Virus record (IMG/VR): IMGVR_UViG_3300007522_000043 | Coordinates: 1-31,768 of that record | Direction: 5' to 3' (one strand) | Origin: a virus | Length of the DNA: 31,768 nt | Shown here: positions 3,620-29,306 of the stretch, in pieces | Layout of the letters: the number at the start of each line of letters is the position of its first letter | How positions within the stretch are numbered: position 1 is the stretch's first letter | Program-made: the position numbers and the translations under genes | The notes under the pieces: model-generated | Databases searched by the model: none | What the model was told of the DNA's origin: nothing | Seen by the model: the letters and a program-made list of their open reading frames with translations, nothing else

Positions 3620-5908
3620 CTAACTAATAGTGCAGGTACCAACATTTTTAGTAAAGGCGGTTACGCCTGTTCCAGTATAATATTCTGCTAGGGCAGTTGC
3701 TGAAAAATTAATCGATTCTAATAACGTGGTACAATTAACATCATAATACACATTTGTGCATCTGTTATGGCCACCAGCTGTAGTCCTTAGCCCTAATCCA
3801 TCTGTGCCAAAATTAGCTTTAACTCCTCCTCTATTGTGCTCTAGTATAAGATCTCGCTTTGCCTCAAGAGCAAGATCCTGCAAAAGAACACCTGCCCCAC
3901 CGTTATTGTCACCAGAACCATTAGCTTGACCACCTTGATTGAAATAAAATTCAATATTTCGAGTGGCCCGTATGTCCAAATTACCTTCAAGCCAAACACC
4001 TTGTCCACCTGCTGAACCAACACCACTACCAGATCCAGCTCCACCAACATTTCTAGTAAAAATTATAGAGCCTGATGCGTTAATTACTGCTCCAATTGCT
4101 GATGCCTTTTTGAAACCAGCCCCAGCGTTAAAGGTAGCACCACCTGAATTAGCTCCTACATTATCTGTTGCAATAAAATTCTCAGCTGTATATAGACCAC
4201 CATCAATAGAGATACCATTACCAGCAAATTCACCAGCACTAGTACCCCCCCGATTTTCATAAAATGAAATAATATTTGTAGCAGTTATTGTAGCAGCAAG
4301 TTGAACAGCATTTCCACCAAAGTTTCCAAGATTGTTAGCAGCACCATTACCACCAGTATTTCCGTAAAAATTTACAGTATTAGAAGCTTTAATATTATTT
4401 GCTGCAAGAGGTAATTGTATGAGGCCTTTGCCTCCATTTGTACCACCATTACCACCAGTATTATTAAAGACTAATAGATTTGATACATTAATTTGGGCAC
4501 CGTTAAGGATTAATGCCTCTCCTCCAGTTCCTGAAACACTATTGCCAGCAACATTTTTAGACATTAATAGATTTGCTGCACTTATATCCATATCATTAAA
4601 AGTCACAGCTGATGATCCAACAACGTCAGAAACTCCCGTTGATGCTCCACCCTGATTTTCTATGAAATTACAATCAGCACTTCCCACTACTGAAGAATCT
4701 GTTGCAAAAATAATAGCGCTTGATGGAGCAACTGTTGATGCTGAATCGACACCTCTATTCCTTAAAAAAACAATATCTCTTGCAGAGTTGATTGTTCCCA
4801 AAATATCTACACCAGTTGCAACGCTAGCAGCACCAATTGCACCAGTATTAGCCAGTGCTAATAAAATACCACCACAATTCACAGTTCCGTTAATACGACA
4901 ACCTGCACCACCAGCAAATGAACCGCCAGTACTTGCTCCACCAACACCATTTCTGATAGTTATATCCGTGTCCGCTGTTATTGTACCACCAATAAGCACA
5001 CCGACGCCTCCAGCACTATTACTACTATCACCGCCTTTATTGTTTTTAAATTTGATATCTTTAGATGAGGCTATTGTTCCAGCAACTTCTACTGCATGGT
5101 TTTGTCCTGTGCCTGCAGCAACAATATAATTACAGATTAAGCAATCAAGAACTTTATTCGACGCATTGCCGATATTTCCTGCAATATCAACCTGTTTATT
5201 TTGGCTTAAGCCATCAAATATAATACTCCCTTTAACAATTAAGGTTTTAGTTGTAGCAATCGTAACATTACCACCAATAACGGTGAGATCACCATTAATT
5301 GTAAGATCTTCACTAACTGTAAAGTCACCATTAACAATTATATTTGCATCAATAATATTTGATCCTGCTGCAGTAGTTAATGTTAGATTTGGATAATTCG
5401 CTCCAGTTATTCCTGTAATAGTTCCAATCACTGAAATAGAAGCTTTATTAGCTACTTCGGCAATTACTTCTACATTGTTAGCAATAGATATAGTAAGGTT
5501 ATTTGATGAATTTAGATCAAAGTTAGCATTTACAACTATAGTTTTTTTCAAAAACATAGAACTTTTTATTTCAAATGCTGTAATAATCGAAGGATCTGGC
5601 TCAGAGTTAATGGTTACTGTAGATCCTGACCCTGAAGTATTTATTAATGTACCGCCTAAAACATTTAATATATTTAAAGCAGGTGAAGCATTTCCAGAAT
5701 CGGTTGTAAATGTATTAGCTAGAGTTCCAAGAGCACTAATAGTAAGGGTATTAGTTGCAGAATTACCAACTACTGACATATCTCCTGACCCAACAAGATT
5801 AATGTTAAATGTGCCATCTGGCCCAACAGCTCCACCACTATTTCCAGTAACAGTTTGAATATTACTAGAAGATGATCCTGAAATTATAAAATTACCGGAT
5901 TGACTCAT
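3620..5908 (-). CDS. Large beta-helix tail fibre with Pmp-like FxxN/GG repeats
   Basis: The 762-residue product begins with an attachment module (residues 15-102) shared with the 2607-3212 protein. Residues 130-250 are a strand-rich region of the kind GDFTVSEDLTINGDLTVIGG, suggesting stacked beta-helix coils. From about residue 287 to 695 come about a dozen repeats of roughly 35 residues, each containing a version of FxxNxGG: FKNNKGG 287, FLRNRG 381, FIENQGG 415, FYGNTGG 514, FYENRGG 549, FTRNVGG 617, FYFNQGG 654. A GG-A/G-hydrophobic motif follows about 15 residues later. FxxN and GGA(I/L/V) motifs are the hallmark of chlamydial polymorphic outer-membrane adhesins, which are beta-helices. 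No autotransporter barrel or signal peptide is present, so this is a virion fibre rather than a bacterial Pmp. An AGGAGAT site precedes the ATG. Confidence 0.78.
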   Translation of the reverse strand: MSQSGNFIISGSSSSNIQTVTGNSGGAVGPDGTFNINLVGSGDMSVVGNSATNTLTISALGTLANTFTTDSGNASPALNILNVLGGTLINTSGSGSTVTINSEPDPSIITAFEIKSSMFLKKTIVVNANFDLNSSNNLTISIANNVEVIAEVANKASISVIGTITGITGANYPNLTLTTAAGSNIIDANIIVNGDFTVSEDLTINGDLTVIGGNVTIATTKTLIVKGSIIFDGLSQNKQVDIAGNIGNASNKVLDCLICNYIVAAGTGQNHAVEVAGTIASSKDIKFKNNKGGDSSNSAGGVGVLIGGTITADTDITIRNGVGGASTGGSFAGGAGCRINGTVNCGGILLALANTGAIGAASVATGVDILGTINSARDIVFLRNRGVDSASTVAPSSAIIFATDSSVVGSADCNFIENQGGASTGVSDVVGSSAVTFNDMDISAANLLMSKNVAGNSVSGTGGEALILNGAQINVSNLLVFNNTGGNGGTNGGKGLIQLPLAANNIKASNTVNFYGNTGGNGAANNLGNFGGNAVQLAATITATNIISFYENRGGTSAGEFAGNGISIDGGLYTAENFIATDNVGANSGGATFNAGAGFKKASAIGAVINASGSIIFTRNVGGAGSGSGVGSAGGQGVWLEGNLDIRATRNIEFYFNQGGQANGSGDNNGGAGVLLQDLALEAKRDLILEHNRGGVKANFGTDGLGLRTTAGGHNRCTNVYYDVNCTTLLESINFSATALAEYYTGTGVTAFTKNVGTCTIS

Positions 5909-22970: not shown

Positions 22971-23210
22971 TTAGTATTTAGACTTTGAACGATTACGATT
23001 TGCACCCTTAACATCAGCATCAATTTGTTCATCGATACCACTTAATTTATCATTTAATTCACGACTTTTAAAATAATCATTACGAGGCCACTCTTTCATG
23101 ATAACTTTATCCGGCAAATTAGCAAATCCTAAATGTTCACCTGAAAACATTCCTTCTGAATGTGAAGTCATTTCTTTATCACCTGAATGATAACGTTTCT
23201 TTTTAGCCAT
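22971..23210 (-). CDS. Small conserved phage protein downstream of portal
   Basis: A 79-residue hydrophilic protein: MAKKKRYHSGDKEMTSHSEG, then FANLPDKVIMKEWPRNDYF and LNDKLSGIDEQIDADVKG with a basic tail. The LP-x-x-VIMKE-(W/Y)PR and LSGIDEQID motifs resemble small unknown proteins that I recall next to portal genes in podoviruses. An AGGAG site precedes the ATG. It has its own promoter candidate at 23328-23355 and is followed 22 bases later by another small gene. Abundance or location in the virion is unknown. Confidence 0.62.
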   Translation of the reverse strand: MAKKKRYHSGDKEMTSHSEGMFSGEHLGFANLPDKVIMKEWPRNDYFKSRELNDKLSGIDEQIDADVKGANRNRSKSKY

Positions 23211-23327
23211 AATAGACTCCTTAGTTAAAAATTGCAGTCATAAAAAGACATGCAAGGTTATAAAATAATACCTCTATTTAACATATCTCAAGATCTTTTA
23301 AGACCTGAAATATTAAATAACACTGAC

Positions 23328-23394: not shown

Positions 23395-25395
23395 TTATTG
23401 TTGGTCACGTTCTATTTTATCTTCTCTTAATGACTTCATCATTAAAATAAGTTTTTCTAGGTGAGCTACATCGAGGTCATCAAGTTCTTTAAGAGTTTTT
23501 GCTTTATCAAGTTCAGCAGCTGCATGATCACGTTCAGCTTCAGCATGACGTTCAAGTGCAAGCGCTCTATTTTCAGGAATACGAGATAATCTTTCTTCTC
23601 CAAGACCTTTGTCTGCAAAGCTACGAGAGTTAGCAAGGTTGGTACGAGCTGCTTGTTCTTGCATCTGTGATTGCATTTGTTGTTCCTGCAATTCAGATTC
23701 TTGTTTCGCTTGAGCTTCAGCATTCTTAATAATCTTATCCTTGCCTTGAAGAGTAGAAGCTTCTAACAGATCTTTAGTTGATATAGGAACGCCAACCTCT
23801 TTGAGATGTAACATCTGAGCAAACTGCATTTGACGTTGAGTCGTAGTGTTTAATCCATCTTCAATTGCCGAATCATAACGTCCAAATGATTTGTTGTAAA
23901 ACTGAGATGTAGGCTCATCTTCAATGATTCGTTTAATTTTTCCGGGCGTAAAATTATTCTGAATAATATTAATCATAATCTTACCTAGTTGCTTCTGTGA
24001 TCTATCAAGTTGATCAAAAAGAACCTGTAAAGTAGTTAGACCTGCACCTTGACGCAGCATAGAAAGAATTCCAGCCTTATCATCAGTAGCCGACCCAAGT
24101 AACTCTTCATTTACACCACTGATCTCTTGTATCTCTTGTCCAAGAATTTTGGATAGCTCGATCATTGATGGTGGAATCTGTGGAGGTTGAATTTGTTGAA
24201 CGTCAGTCATCTGAGCGTCTTCTTTAAGAGCCAAGCCACGACCTTGTCCACTCATGAACACATCTTTAGGATTAACTAATGAATTCTCTTTGTAAATCCA
24301 ACCAGAGTTGATCTGACTTTCAAGTATATCTAATTCAATAATCTTTCTACGATTATAAAGATACTGTGCATCTCTTAGTCCACGAACTACACCTTGTATT
24401 CTGTAAGAGAAATGAGGCATCTGTGGATTGTAGTAGCCAAGTACAGGTACAAATGGATATACATCGATCCCTAAAGGGTTGGGGCCATCATAGACAACCT
24501 TACCTTCAACAACGATAGCTACTTTAACCGTTGGAATCTCTTGTTCAACTATAGTGAGTGCAGGATATGCATCTAAAAACAAAGCTAAAGATTCATCATC
24601 ATTACCTGTCCATTCTTGTGTCTCACCAGTTTCTGAATCGATAAGCATCTTTTGAACTCTGTAATCTTTGTAGTAAAACTCATCATATGTCATGAGATTT
24701 TTATAGCCATAGTTATAAGACTCTGGCATAAATTGAAACTTACCATCACGGCCTGTCCCTGCAGCAGTAGGAGTAATATCCATAATCTCATCAGCTTGGC
24801 CAGGTAATAATGATAAAATCTCACGCTTAGATAAAAATGAACGTTTCCATAATCCATTACAGTCAGACAAGTCTGATTTTTTAAAAAATGGATCAATTAA
24901 AAATGAATTATAAGAACAGTTATCTACTTTAATGTTACCTGATACTGGATCAGATCTGTAATCTACCCAGACTTGCAGTAAATTTAAACCAGTAACAAGT
25001 GCACCTTGAAATGATTCTGAAATAGTCTCTAAAACACTCTCTTGATTGTTAGACCAAAGCATCACCTTGGTAAACTGATCGGCAGTCTTAGCATCTCCAT
25101 TCTCTACTGGCACTACAATGGTAGATTTACGCGTACGTCTTTGATGACCAGAAATCATATTGATGACACGCCGGATGCGATTAAAGTTGAATTGTTGTCG
25201 ACGATTAGCAGGAAGGGTACTGTATATATCATTCCAAAGAGTTTGATCACCAGCTTCAAACCTTGTGTCTGTATCAGCCTCGGACCAAAATGATTGATTG
25301 ATAGTGATTGATTCAGCATAGAAATTTTCCATGCGTTTTAAAATTCCTTGGTGCTCTTCACTATGATATTGGTTCGGAAGCTGAGGGAACAACAT
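23395..25395 (-). CDS. Portal protein
   Basis: The 666-residue protein forms the dodecameric ring at one capsid vertex through which DNA is packaged and to which the adaptor binds. Recognisable portal features are RRVINMISGHQRRTRKSTIV (residues 79-98), the GALVTGLNLLQVWVDYRSDP strand region, and the FLIDPFFKKSDLSDCNGLWK segment (around 184-203). YPFVPVLGYYNPQM, RDAQYLYNRRK and the clip/stem-type helices GQEIQEISGVNEELLG also fit. The C-terminal 120 residues form a long Gln/Glu/Ala-rich coiled coil (QEQQMQSQMQEQAARTN, RALALERHAEAERDHAAAEL), longer than in minimal portals and reminiscent of the barrel of P22-like portals. AGGAG precedes the ATG. It follows TerL after two accessory genes. Confidence 0.85.
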   Translation of the reverse strand: MLFPQLPNQYHSEEHQGILKRMENFYAESITINQSFWSEADTDTRFEAGDQTLWNDIYSTLPANRRQQFNFNRIRRVINMISGHQRRTRKSTIVVPVENGDAKTADQFTKVMLWSNNQESVLETISESFQGALVTGLNLLQVWVDYRSDPVSGNIKVDNCSYNSFLIDPFFKKSDLSDCNGLWKRSFLSKREILSLLPGQADEIMDITPTAAGTGRDGKFQFMPESYNYGYKNLMTYDEFYYKDYRVQKMLIDSETGETQEWTGNDDESLALFLDAYPALTIVEQEIPTVKVAIVVEGKVVYDGPNPLGIDVYPFVPVLGYYNPQMPHFSYRIQGVVRGLRDAQYLYNRRKIIELDILESQINSGWIYKENSLVNPKDVFMSGQGRGLALKEDAQMTDVQQIQPPQIPPSMIELSKILGQEIQEISGVNEELLGSATDDKAGILSMLRQGAGLTTLQVLFDQLDRSQKQLGKIMINIIQNNFTPGKIKRIIEDEPTSQFYNKSFGRYDSAIEDGLNTTTQRQMQFAQMLHLKEVGVPISTKDLLEASTLQGKDKIIKNAEAQAKQESELQEQQMQSQMQEQAARTNLANSRSFADKGLGEERLSRIPENRALALERHAEAERDHAAAELDKAKTLKELDDLDVAHLEKLILMMKSLREDKIERDQQ

Positions 25396-25500: not shown

Positions 25501-26403
25501 TCATTTGTTATATCTAACTTTCATTCTTCGCTTCTTACTTTTCAAAATTGGTATACCTACTTGCTGATCATTATATTTTGAAATACCCATAGATACTATA
25601 GATAATACCATTTTCGTATCCTTATCAACTATCATAATTTTACTAGCTATCTCGTCAGGAACACGCTTAAAACAAACATTTTTCTTACACATCAAAGAAT
25701 CTTGGCATGAGCTATCATGAGGATGTAATGCACGATTAGACATTGCAGCATATTGCTGATCAAACGAATCATTAAAAGGTTTTAAACGATTAATAGCAGC
25801 AAGATCTGGCTGGACCATTTTCGCCCATTTCGCCCATTTTTTCGACCTGTTTTCAACTATCATAATTTTACTAACTATCTTGTCAGGAACACGCTTAAAA
25901 CAGACCTTTTGCTTGCAAATTAAAGGATCTTTGCATGGGCCATCATGAGGACGTAATGCACGATCAGACATTGCAGCATATTGCTGATCAAATGAATCAT
26001 TAAAAGATTTTAAATCAGCAATATCAGCACTATCTTGCTGGACCATTTTCGTATTCTTATCAACTATCATAATTCTACTAACTATCTTGTCAGGAACACG
26101 CTCAAAGCAGACATTTTTATTACACATCATAGGATCTTTGCATGTGCTATCATGAGGACGTAATGCACGAGCAGACATTGCAGCATATTGCTGATTAAAC
26201 GAAGCATTAAAAGATTTTAAACGATTAACAACACCACTATCTTGCTGGACCATAGGTGATTTACTACCATGTTTGATAGAAATTGGAGTCAAAGGGTCAT
26301 CCAATGCAGAGCTTAAACCTTTCGTGCTAATAATAAACCTACTCTTAATCTTATAAAGGACTCTAAATAGTAAATTACATACCAGACTTAATATATTACT
26401 CAT
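25501..26403 (-). CDS. Accessory protein with three Cys/His-rich repeats
   Basis: A 300-residue protein. Residues 4-18 are hydrophobic or amphipathic and could anchor it to a membrane. The body is three copies of a 69-76-residue repeat at residues 51-119, 120-195 and 196-264. Each has MVQxD, FN-SF-QQYAAMS-RAL-PHD, then Cys-rich CKDPMMCNKNVCF-like sequence, R-VPD-I-S-IMIV. The H-x3-C-x5-C-x4-C spacing is kept in all three, suggesting a small zinc-binding unit. Repeat two ends with an extra KKWAKWA. A partial fourth copy (MVLSIVSM) starts the tail, which ends very basic. The ATG overlaps the upstream stop (ATGA). I know no family. It sits between terminase and portal, where most phages have nothing. 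Confidence 0.65.
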   Translation of the reverse strand: MSNILSLVCNLLFRVLYKIKSRFIISTKGLSSALDDPLTPISIKHGSKSPMVQQDSGVVNRLKSFNASFNQQYAAMSARALRPHDSTCKDPMMCNKNVCFERVPDKIVSRIMIVDKNTKMVQQDSADIADLKSFNDSFDQQYAAMSDRALRPHDGPCKDPLICKQKVCFKRVPDKIVSKIMIVENRSKKWAKWAKMVQPDLAAINRLKPFNDSFDQQYAAMSNRALHPHDSSCQDSLMCKKNVCFKRVPDEIASKIMIVDKDTKMVLSIVSMGISKYNDQQVGIPILKSKKRRMKVRYNK

Positions 26404-26873
26404 TTAACAAAATCCTCTTCTTTAAACTTTTTAACATTCTGCAAGTTAACCTGATAAGCTTCTTCATCTAAAGGCCTACTTGATCCATACTCTTTATCTC
26501 CTGCTTCATAAACATCTGCTAACGAAATCTTTTCCATTTGATGATGATTAGGATCTTCACCAAATGGAAGAGCGTACAATATCTCATAAACTTTTTCGAG
26601 GATACATTCTTTATCATTTACCAACAGCTTAATACGATTCTTTAATGCATAACTCAAAATTAACTGCAAATAACGACGCTTCAGCTTCTTTAATGACTTC
26701 TCATCTCTACGATAAAATGGAGGAGTTAAATGAAACTTTTCATTCTTAAATGTAAGATCATAATTCTTTGCAGGCTCAGACAATATGCCATACAGTACAC
26801 TATAAACACCTTCTAGCCCACTATCCAACTGTTTTAAAGCAGCATCCAACTTTTTATATTCTTCTATTAACAC
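26400..26873 (-). CDS. Accessory protein between TerL and portal, unknown function
   Basis: A 157-residue helical protein read from a GTG codon with AAGGAG at good spacing. A leucine-containing N-terminal helix (EEYKKLDAALKQLDSGLEGV) is followed by FHLTPPFYRRDEKSLKKLKR, RRYLQLILSYALKNRIKLLV and an acidic tail with LDEEAYQVNLQNVKKF. No signal or motif of a known enzyme. It overlaps the Cys/His-repeat gene by 4 bases, so the two are translated together and may act together. TerL ends 36 bases upstream. Confidence 0.55.
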   Translation of the reverse strand: MLIEEYKKLDAALKQLDSGLEGVYSVLYGILSEPAKNYDLTFKNEKFHLTPPFYRRDEKSLKKLKRRYLQLILSYALKNRIKLLVNDKECILEKVYEILYALPFGEDPNHHQMEKISLADVYEAGDKEYGSSRPLDEEAYQVNLQNVKKFKEEDFVK

Positions 26874-26909: not shown

Positions 26910-29306
26910 CTAGTATGGTGGTAAATCATTTCTAAATATATTTGGCATATTTGATTGGTGTCCATAACGAGCTTCGTTATATCTATCATCCAAATCCTTA
27001 GCAGATGATCCATCTCTGGTTTTAGAAATATTGGCACATAGATATCTCATACTGTCCGCATAATGAGAAGCCCAGTTATGCAACGGTCTTCCTTTATATA
27101 CTCTTCTCTTAACATCAAACTCTTGTCTATAGTTTTCTAATGACTTAATAAGATCAGCACAATTTCTCTGATCAATCCAAATCTTATTAAATGAACTACG
27201 TACACACTCTATACCATCCATAATATTGTCAGCTCTTCCAACTACAAATTTAACACCAAGCTGTCGAGCTTTCTCCAGTCGAGTAATACCTGTCCCCAGT
27301 TCAGCAACCTTTATATCATGAGGAGCAAAATGCTTACCATAACTGTAAGGTTTACTCTCAAGAACTCTAACGTAATGCTCTAAGCCTTCTTTGTTATTGT
27401 CATAACAATCTATTATGCGAACAGTTTGCCCAATAACTTGAAAAAAGATGATACATGTAGAATCTGACATACCAAGATCCCATGCAGTCGACACCGGAAA
27501 TCCATTTTCCCATGGAACCTGTCCGATCTGACCCTTTTGCCTCATAACATCAAGATATTTAGTATAGTATGACCCTTCGATACCCATATCAAAGCTACAG
27601 TAATACTCTTGCTGAATAAGATCTTCAGACATGAGTCCTTCACGACGCTCTCTGTCTATCTCTTCCATGGGGATATGATCTGTATCACTTAAAGAAAGCT
27701 TGTAAGCAAACCAGTCATCAGAATTAAGAGCAATTTGGTAAAGCTCCCACAAATGATTCTTGCCTCTTGGTGTAGATATAAACAAAGCCCAACCGTCGTT
27801 AGCAGCAAGAATAGGACGAATGAATTGATACGCTCGAGGATCCTGTAATGCATACTCACTAAATATAACTCCATATGGATTTGTACCGACTAAAGAATTT
27901 CCTGACCACATCTCTTTTCCATTACGGCGAACTTTAATAACACCTGACGGAACAGAAACACAGTAAACCTTACCTCTATAATTAACTTTATGAATATGAG
28001 ATTTACTTGATGCGCTTTTTAATCTTTTAAATTTAGACTTACGGACACGTAGTTTATACAATATATGTTTAGCTTGTATCAATCTTTTTCTTATATAAGA
28101 ATCTTTTTGTTTTCTAATTGAAATGTTTCCACTCAATCCCAGCTTAATAACAATCTCTTGAACATCATCAATCAGTTGTTTTGAAGTAGAATAATATGCC
28201 GTATATGCATTGTTACGTGTTCTATCTCCTAAAATAAGCCAATCAAATAATATCTGTAAGTATTTTTTACTTAGATTCTTTATATCTTTTGGTATAAACC
28301 TTGTTGGCTGATTACCAAACTTGGCAAAGTAACCATACATTTGATTACATTCTATTGTAAATCTATCTTTACCCTCTTGAAAATTAATACCTATATCTTG
28401 CAACAATGATCTTATTTTATTTCGACCATGCTCTTTTGTCTGGGCTATAGTTATACGATTAGTTTTACAATCTTGATACGTACTTCCTTGCCCAAGGAAT
28501 ATACCCAAGAATGCAACAAAGTGGTCCATCTTCATAGATCTTTCTTCTATTCTACCACGAGCATATGAAGACAGTTTTACCTTGGGAAATACGAAAACAT
28601 CTTTATTTATAGTGGATGACCAATTAGATTGCGATGGGATCATATCATGACGAATTGTTGGATCACTTATTTCTTTGAACTTATAAAACCCCTTACCAGA
28701 CTTTACAAACAATCTATGATTAGGAGTTACTCTAAAATCCATACTAGTATTGCTAATGGCATACAATTCACCATCATAATCATATTCCATATGTTCTGTT
28801 GGAGTATGATATTCTAAGTATCCATCAACTAATGTGGCTACTTTTTCTGATTGATCTAGATCCTTAAACAGTTTCCAACCATTTTCAGACAGTATTTCTG
28901 TTTGATCATCAAAGCAATCATAATTATCACTTCCAACCAATTGCAAAAGAGACCCATTTCTAAAACGAATCTTCATCTCTTGGCCATTCTTAGACGTTAT
29001 CAACTCGTCAGGTATATAGTCCAAGATACGCTTGCCTTCATTGGTAACACTATCCCAAATTACCTTCTTAGCTTGTGCATATGTAGGAAAAATATAATAC
29101 ACTACGCAAACCCTTAAAAGACATTGCCTCATTGCCAATTGGAATGCAGTCATATCTTTTCCACTACGTCGAGGCATTATCGCTACAACACGCTTATAAC
29201 CCTTGTTCTCTATAGCATCAAGAATCGGAAGCTGATAATCCCTAGGAACAAACTGATTGAGATGTATAGCAGACTGTACCGGTAAACCTTTAATAGGCTT
29301 GATCAT
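26910..29306 (-). CDS. terL: Terminase large subunit interrupted by an intein
   Basis: The 798-residue precursor is a packaging motor ATPase/nuclease with a 340-residue intein; without it the protein has a normal 458 residues. The ATPase part shows Walker A MPRRSGKD (44-51), Walker B-like GVIFSEYAL with catalytic Glu484, and the coupling motif FISTPRGKN (509-517). The RNase H-like nuclease has VSTAWDLGMSD (Asp610) and SHYADSMRYL (Asp751). The intein spans C131-N470, inserted between the Walker motifs, 14 residues before the catalytic Glu: the N-extein ends GSDNYD and the C-extein begins SLVGTNPYG. Splicing residues are Cys131, TPNHRLF (His197), penultimate Gly469, Asn470 and Ser471. AAAGGA precedes the ATG. 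The packaging motor acts with the TerS candidate and the portal. Confidence 0.9.
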   Translation of the reverse strand: MIKPIKGLPVQSAIHLNQFVPRDYQLPILDAIENKGYKRVVAIMPRRSGKDMTAFQLAMRQCLLRVCVVYYIFPTYAQAKKVIWDSVTNEGKRILDYIPDELITSKNGQEMKIRFRNGSLLQLVGSDNYDCFDDQTEILSENGWKLFKDLDQSEKVATLVDGYLEYHTPTEHMEYDYDGELYAISNTSMDFRVTPNHRLFVKSGKGFYKFKEISDPTIRHDMIPSQSNWSSTINKDVFVFPKVKLSSYARGRIEERSMKMDHFVAFLGIFLGQGSTYQDCKTNRITIAQTKEHGRNKIRSLLQDIGINFQEGKDRFTIECNQMYGYFAKFGNQPTRFIPKDIKNLSKKYLQILFDWLILGDRTRNNAYTAYYSTSKQLIDDVQEIVIKLGLSGNISIRKQKDSYIRKRLIQAKHILYKLRVRKSKFKRLKSASSKSHIHKVNYRGKVYCVSVPSGVIKVRRNGKEMWSGNSLVGTNPYGVIFSEYALQDPRAYQFIRPILAANDGWALFISTPRGKNHLWELYQIALNSDDWFAYKLSLSDTDHIPMEEIDRERREGLMSEDLIQQEYYCSFDMGIEGSYYTKYLDVMRQKGQIGQVPWENGFPVSTAWDLGMSDSTCIIFFQVIGQTVRIIDCYDNNKEGLEHYVRVLESKPYSYGKHFAPHDIKVAELGTGITRLEKARQLGVKFVVGRADNIMDGIECVRSSFNKIWIDQRNCADLIKSLENYRQEFDVKRRVYKGRPLHNWASHYADSMRYLCANISKTRDGSSAKDLDDRYNEARYGHQSNMPNIFRNDLPPY
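27897..28916 (-). mobile_element. Intein with a degenerate LAGLIDADG homing endonuclease
   Basis: In-frame element encoding residues 131-470 of the terminase. The Hint splicing domain is intact by eye: Cys at the first position, block B TPNHRLF, block F VYCVSVPSG and the end WSGN followed by Ser. The insert between has two LAGLIDADG-type segments, FVAFLGIFLGQGST (263-276) and LQILFDWLILGDRT (350-363). In the first, the catalytic acidic residue expected in LGxxxGDG is Gln, so DNA cleavage is probably lost while splicing remains. Confidence 0.88.

Follow-up and report, generated by a model that had tools for sequence, protein, structure and literature searches.

We examined a gene on the minus strand (25501..26403) of the window, by which we mean the whole stretch of DNA analyzed, all 31,768 nucleotides of IMGVR_UViG_3300007522_000043. 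The gene encodes a protein of 300 amino acids with an N-terminal helix, three units that each carry one histidine and three cysteines (the HCCC motif), and a basic C-terminal tail. We use the name CYS for this gene and for the protein family with the motif. The gene starts with an ATG that overlaps the stop codon of the upstream gene (ATGA) and is preceded by a ribosome site (AAGAGGA). An earlier note on this DNA had placed the gene at 25612-26253; the open reading frame is real but larger, and the core of each unit is 64 amino acids.

Each of the three units corresponds to one domain found with the HMM. All are on the minus strand: unit 1 is at 26062..26253 (aa 51-114, HMM domain 1), unit 2 at 25855..26046 (aa 120-183, domain 2), and unit 3 at 25627..25818 (aa 196-259, domain 3). 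Each contains exactly H-x3-C-x5-C-x4-C, at 26107..26154 in unit 1 (aa 84-99; H84, C88, C94 and C99 are invariant in the family alignment) and, by motif and family alignment, at 25900..25947 in unit 2 (aa 153-168) and 25672..25719 in unit 3 (aa 229-244). The blocks FN-SF-QQYAAMS and IMIV are also found in all three units, and pairs of units have protein identities of 70-73% and a DNA identity of 88%. An identical protein of 300 amino acids is encoded in two further IMG/VR contigs from other samples (99.6-99.7% DNA identity to the window over 13.7 and 6.5 kb). The triple array is intact in these two other assemblies and is thus not a single assembly error; the triplicated Cys/His repeat that the earlier note described is real.

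CYS is between the genes for the terminase and the portal protein, as had been proposed, but it shares that slot with a second gene. This gene, s157 (26400..26873, minus strand), co-occurs with CYS, has a GTG start, and encodes 157 amino acids predicted to form a helix, a beta hairpin, a helix, and a flexible tail. Upstream is the intein-interrupted terminase gene TerL (26910..29306, minus strand; PHROG 2 and 2472, and junctions), and downstream is a P22-type portal protein (23395..25395, minus strand; Pfam PF16510, E 9e-73; PHROG 156). There was no terminator-like site in the window between 23000 and 30000.

Several other features of these genes are worth recording. The TerL intein (27897-28916) is 340 amino acids (aa 131-470, CFDDQTEIL...SGN/S) with a LAGLIDADG domain (Pfam PF14528), and long TerL open reading frames were also present in several related loci. 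The portal gene is in two open reading frames with a gap of 140-210 bp in L022, L085, L098, and L128, possibly due to a small insertion or a frameshift. The 97 bp at 23185-23281, downstream of the portal gene, are ~93% identical to the related locus L006, compared to 79% for portal DNA, and are probably a promoter and ribosome-site region before a small open reading frame.

Relatives of CYS and the age of the triplication

Other phages encode CYS as a single-copy protein. A portal search of IMG/VR gave 80 related loci. In the gap between TerL and portal, 13 loci from other phages encoded a single-copy homologue of about 100-136 amino acids, representing 10 distinct proteins together with near-copies. 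We aligned the 10 homologues with the three units; this set was gathered by portal search, tblastn, and profile, and made no use of the Cys/His motif. Six columns were invariant, namely H, C, C, C, P, and D, and no others. A motif scan then raised the total to 43 distinct open reading frames outside the window, on about 40 viral contigs, and the same six residues, and no other column, were invariant in all 46 rows (43 open reading frames and three units). The loci from the motif scan were chosen by C[FW]xxxPDK[IM]V, so for those loci only the His and the first two Cys count as independent evidence, the last Cys and PDK being part of the search motif.

The spacing was mostly H-x3-C-x5-C-x4-C, with a range of H-x1/3-C-x4/5-C-x4-C (x1 in four members, x4 in five). 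In these phages, single-copy proteins with H-x1/3-C-x4/5-C-x4-C-[FWY] followed by PD are encoded in the TerL-portal gap, and relatives with 25-50% identity have retained exactly these residues. A scan by another block (QEDP) added only one new member, L158, indicating that the CYS set is near saturation for IMG/VR at this sensitivity. Among 3575 other open reading frames of these loci, the motif or PDK[IVM]V occurred in one, the s157 homologue of L108. CYS is almost certainly a real protein family.

Every other member of the family has one unit per open reading frame. Two loci have unusual arrangements. L125 (3628-4324) has two tandem single-unit genes of the CYS type, each with an additional C-terminal Cys cluster, and the upstream copy is without the PDKIV block. 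In the L098 homologue (3770-4336), a second Cys module (CAMC...CFTC) has been inserted after the N-terminal helix and before the conserved domain.

The units of CYS in the window are young. Pairs of units have 2-4 synonymous and ~20 non-synonymous differences (dN/dS of 1.2-2.7), indicating that divergence since the triplication was fast or unconstrained. Against the nearest relative, L006, portal had a dN/dS of 0.08, unit 1 of 0.14, and unit 3 of 0.21. Synonymous sites in units 1 and 3 were close to saturated, and unit 2 yielded no usable estimate. Of the 64 positions, 25 differ among the three units. Of the ten most strongly family-conserved positions, one varies among the units (P ~0.04 for such constancy). 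Functional positions have been spared in all three units despite the dN/dS of 1.2-2.7.

Because the units are young, conservation among the three alone is weak evidence for metal ligands. The single-copy relatives, which keep the H, C, C, and C, separate the ligand signal from the recency of the triplication. The triplication is a recent event in one lineage: two duplications would have turned one domain into three in the window phage, giving one anchored protein that bears three adaptor domains. It is a snapshot of the multiplication of a putative metal domain, with the predicted ligands fixed and the remainder changing freely.

CYS did not match known domains. There was no match in Pfam, NCBIfam, PHROGs, PADLOC, or PDB sequences (the profile search was empty), and Foldseek with the CYS model gave no match in PDB and no credible viral match in BFVD. 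The zinc-finger and metal families of Pfam and NCBIfam (zf-TAZ, zinc knuckle, CCCH, and others) had no match among CYS members, and PADLOC defense profiles gave only single-member matches with E of 0.01 or worse. Weak matches to DUF7107, LEAP-2, and Brr6_like were below the cut-offs of those families and scattered, and we rejected them. Neither CYS nor s157 was present in the isolated-phage records searched. These searches bear out the suggestion that CYS matches no known domain. Of the proposal of an undescribed metal-binding repeat family, the parts that hold are that the family is undescribed and has invariant H, C, C, and C; repeats are not the norm, as the normal form is single-copy. Both the CYS family and the CYS-s157 gene pair are described in none of the libraries searched, and the predicted metal site can be tested.

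Predicted metal site and membrane helix

The one His and three Cys of each unit probably hold a metal, most likely zinc. We ran AF2 on unit 1 and the N-terminus with an alignment of 42 rows. The model (mean pLDDT of 70) had helices at 2-23 and 56-80 and short strands at 81-83 and 100-102. The strand at 81-83 is directly before His84, and pLDDT at the Cys/His site was about 60-65. The invariant His and the reducing cytoplasm favor metal binding over disulfides.

CYS is predicted to contact the membrane. The N-terminal helix of the window protein (codons 2-23, 26335..26400, minus strand, SNILSLVCNLLFRVLYKIKSRF) is predicted as a helix by AF2 (pLDDT ~80) and as hydrophobic or amphipathic by hydropathy and hydrophobic moment. 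Three relatives (L114, L128, and L158) have strongly hydrophobic N-terminal transmembrane helices followed by Lys/Arg, and others, including that in the window, have shorter amphipathic N-termini. Many members have basic tails. The Lys/Arg flank of a transmembrane helix stays cytoplasmic (the positive-inside rule), so the Lys/Arg after the helix in these three relatives would place the Cys/His domain in the cytoplasm and the C-terminus inside. We think it fairly likely that CYS contacts the membrane with its domain in the cytoplasm, and the clear transmembrane helices of these relatives lend support to the N-terminal anchor suggested earlier.

The CYS-s157 cassette and the likely host

CYS and s157 form a gene cassette. 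Using profiles for TerL, s157, CYS, and portal, we found the order TerL, s157, CYS, portal in nearly every complete locus, with the genes on one strand and often overlapping; in a few loci s157 was after CYS. In the loci scanned by profile, s157 was never found without CYS, and some divergent loci had CYS without a recognizable s157. CYS was never found outside of the TerL-portal slot in the records searched. The helix-hairpin-helix prediction for s157 was of high confidence. We found no family match for s157 where we searched, and its fold matches (Z ≤6.3), which were long-helix arrangements that included chain K of the phage E1004 core proteins (Z 4.5), were not trusted. The s157 homologues of L108 (L108:3107-3628), L056, L115, L117, L118, and L119 form one clade with Cys pairs of their own (CKC...CDGKC or CPCW...CDKKC), and that of L108 also has a PDKIV motif resembling that in CYS.

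The cassette is old. Distances for CYS and s157 were correlated with those for portal (Mantel r of 0.74 and 0.82; 0 of 5000 permutations) and with each other (r of 0.81; partial correlation of 0.53 after portal). In a portal tree made by a quick method (89 rows), the presence of CYS required five changes. Both proteins evolve far faster than portal (mean identity of 35% for CYS and 23% for s157, compared to 70% for portal).

The cassette is also missing from sister phages. Both genes were absent anywhere in ten related phage records of 20-40 kb, and TerL is only 30-250 bp from portal in L061, L060, L015, and L025, indicating that packaging and portal assembly as such can proceed without the pair. 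The earlier note held that this slot is normally without accessory genes; in the 80 related phages, the gap ranged between ~30 bp and several kb and contained various open reading frames, including HNH-like ones, which contradicts that view. The pair was inherited in place and mostly vertically with portal, but is dispensable. CYS and s157 are probably a functional pair.

The phage group of the window, which is uncultured and tailed, probably infects Chlamydiota, for which there is good but not final evidence. When a portal profile was run across the entire collection, with one genome per species, the two loci that were confirmed came from Chlamydiota metagenome-assembled genomes, and relatives of portal were present in 10 of 234 Chlamydiota genomes. 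One of these (L161, G159:C1:9001-29000) has TerL and a truncated portal fragment on a 125-kb Chlamydiota contig and is a degraded prophage remnant; its flanking genes, from our reading of the open reading frames, are presumably dapA, purB, ung, and MFS transporters. A Simkaniaceae contig encodes a capsid protein 70% identical to that of the window. The portal relatives, with one a prophage remnant, make Chlamydiota a likelier host than Dependentiae, and the earlier hint of Dependentiae is not supported. The CYS family profile, which detects records known to hold CYS, had no match in the 234 genomes, and besides structural genes, protospacer-like DNA matches in Chlamydiota were only short and at chance level.

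Capsid genes in these contigs can be interrupted. In L165 (15830-18568), a phage contig from a Chlamydiota metagenome-assembled genome, the major capsid gene is in five exon-like pieces. The pieces are separated by four insertions, each ~320-620 bp long, that resemble related introns within a single gene; these have common ends (AATTGACTTG..., ...AACAAGGGGCAAG..., CAGCCTGAACGACTAAA...GATGCGATAGTCTGAAC...GTAACAGAA) and had no Rfam match even at E 1. The capsid gene in L164 is likewise split.

Possible functions and known systems

We tentatively favor a reading of CYS as a membrane-tethered, zinc-stabilized late adaptor that acts with s157, perhaps at portal or procapsid assembly. The N-terminal helix would touch or span the membrane and be followed by a flexible linker and then a helix. 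The compact metal site would come next, its single His and its three Cys binding a structural ion that is most likely zinc. After the site there would be a strand of Pro-Asp-Lys-Ile-Val and, in most members, a basic tail, and the metal domain would face the cytoplasm. CYS would be made from the terminase-portal operon with s157, and the two would act jointly late in infection, as an adaptor or chaperone that keeps portal, procapsid, or packaging components at the inner membrane. The invariant residues and N-terminal helices argue well for metal binding, membrane contact, and the cytoplasmic side; gene order and co-occurrence hint at joint action with s157 and a role at the portal. Position beside portal and vertical inheritance favor a role in portal or procapsid assembly or packaging, and for CYS we regard a role at the portal as possible, short of an even chance. 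A more specific picture is doubtful: a two-gene module of Chlamydiota tailed phages in which a zinc adaptor, tethered to the membrane on its cytoplasmic side, works with a helical partner at the portal vertex, so that head assembly or packaging would include a step at the membrane, with tripling of the adaptor domain giving multivalency.

Dispensability and fast evolution favor a host-directed accessory role about equally. CYS and s157 could be a late, moron-like pair that interacts with the host membrane or cytoplasm, for example in superinfection exclusion or counter-defense, with no part in virion assembly. The absence of the pair from sister phages, the variable slot that also houses HNH-like and other open reading frames, the fast evolution of both proteins, a dN/dS of 1 or more between the young units, and the membrane helix of CYS would all fit such a role. 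However, the slot and strand are constant, inheritance is mostly vertical with portal, CYS was never elsewhere in the records searched, and it matched no defense family. Knowing what the pair does would tell whether these phages carry out a portal step at the membrane or direct a late activity at the host.

It is improbable that CYS is a disulfide-bonded domain without metal. Three of the four invariant residues are Cys, and the envelope of the likely host group, Chlamydiota, is cysteine-rich and disulfide-linked and could be engaged by such a domain. However, the His varies no more than the Cys do, an odd number of Cys leaves one unpaired in each unit and many members have no other Cys, and the domain is predicted to be cytoplasmic. 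We consider it very unlikely that CYS is a release or lysis-timing factor, that is, a small protein of the membrane, its metal domain in the cytoplasm, that affects lysis or exit from an intracellular bacterium: several members have a membrane helix and no lysis gene was recognized by Pfam among the proteins scanned, but CYS is in the head module, and typical holins or spanins differ from a protein with one predicted transmembrane segment and a long conserved cytoplasmic domain. That the Cys/His pattern is a functionless echo of a recent duplication, as the 88% DNA identity and dN/dS of 1.2-2.7 among units might suggest, is contradicted by the single-copy relatives and by the low dN/dS of units 1 and 3 against L006 at near-saturated synonymous sites, and can be dismissed.

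Other phages differ in what they have in this slot. Rhizobium phage RHph_Y1_10 has no gene between TerL and portal. Burkholderia phage BcepMigl, whose P22-type portal is distantly related, has a 147-aa gene (gp46) in the same slot as CYS and s157. However, gp46 is unlike either protein: its hhalign probability against s157 was 0.1% and it is without the HCCC motif.

The spacing in CYS resembles that of TAZ-type HCCC sites, a likeness and not membership. In the TAZ domain of p300/CBP (zf-TAZ), each zinc is bound by a His and three Cys, and the spacing is of the type H-x3-C-x4/5-C-x4-C. CYS would be alike in having HCCC per (putative) zinc and is alike in its similar spacing and in a helix that leads into the His. 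The TAZ domain is helical, binds three zinc ions, and folds in a zinc-dependent manner (PMC3534135). CYS has one site per domain rather than three and, unlike TAZ, is a phage protein with a membrane helix and a PDKIV strand, and is without a Pfam or PDB match.

The closest parallel in role may be gp40 of phage T4, which to our knowledge is not known as a zinc protein. A chaperone of this type is bound to the membrane, and assembly of the portal initiator requires it. T4 gp40 is a membrane-linked chaperone that helps the portal protein gp20 assemble on the inner membrane (PMC4493910, PMC9958956). CYS could likewise be a phage-encoded, membrane-linked portal helper, an analogy of role only.
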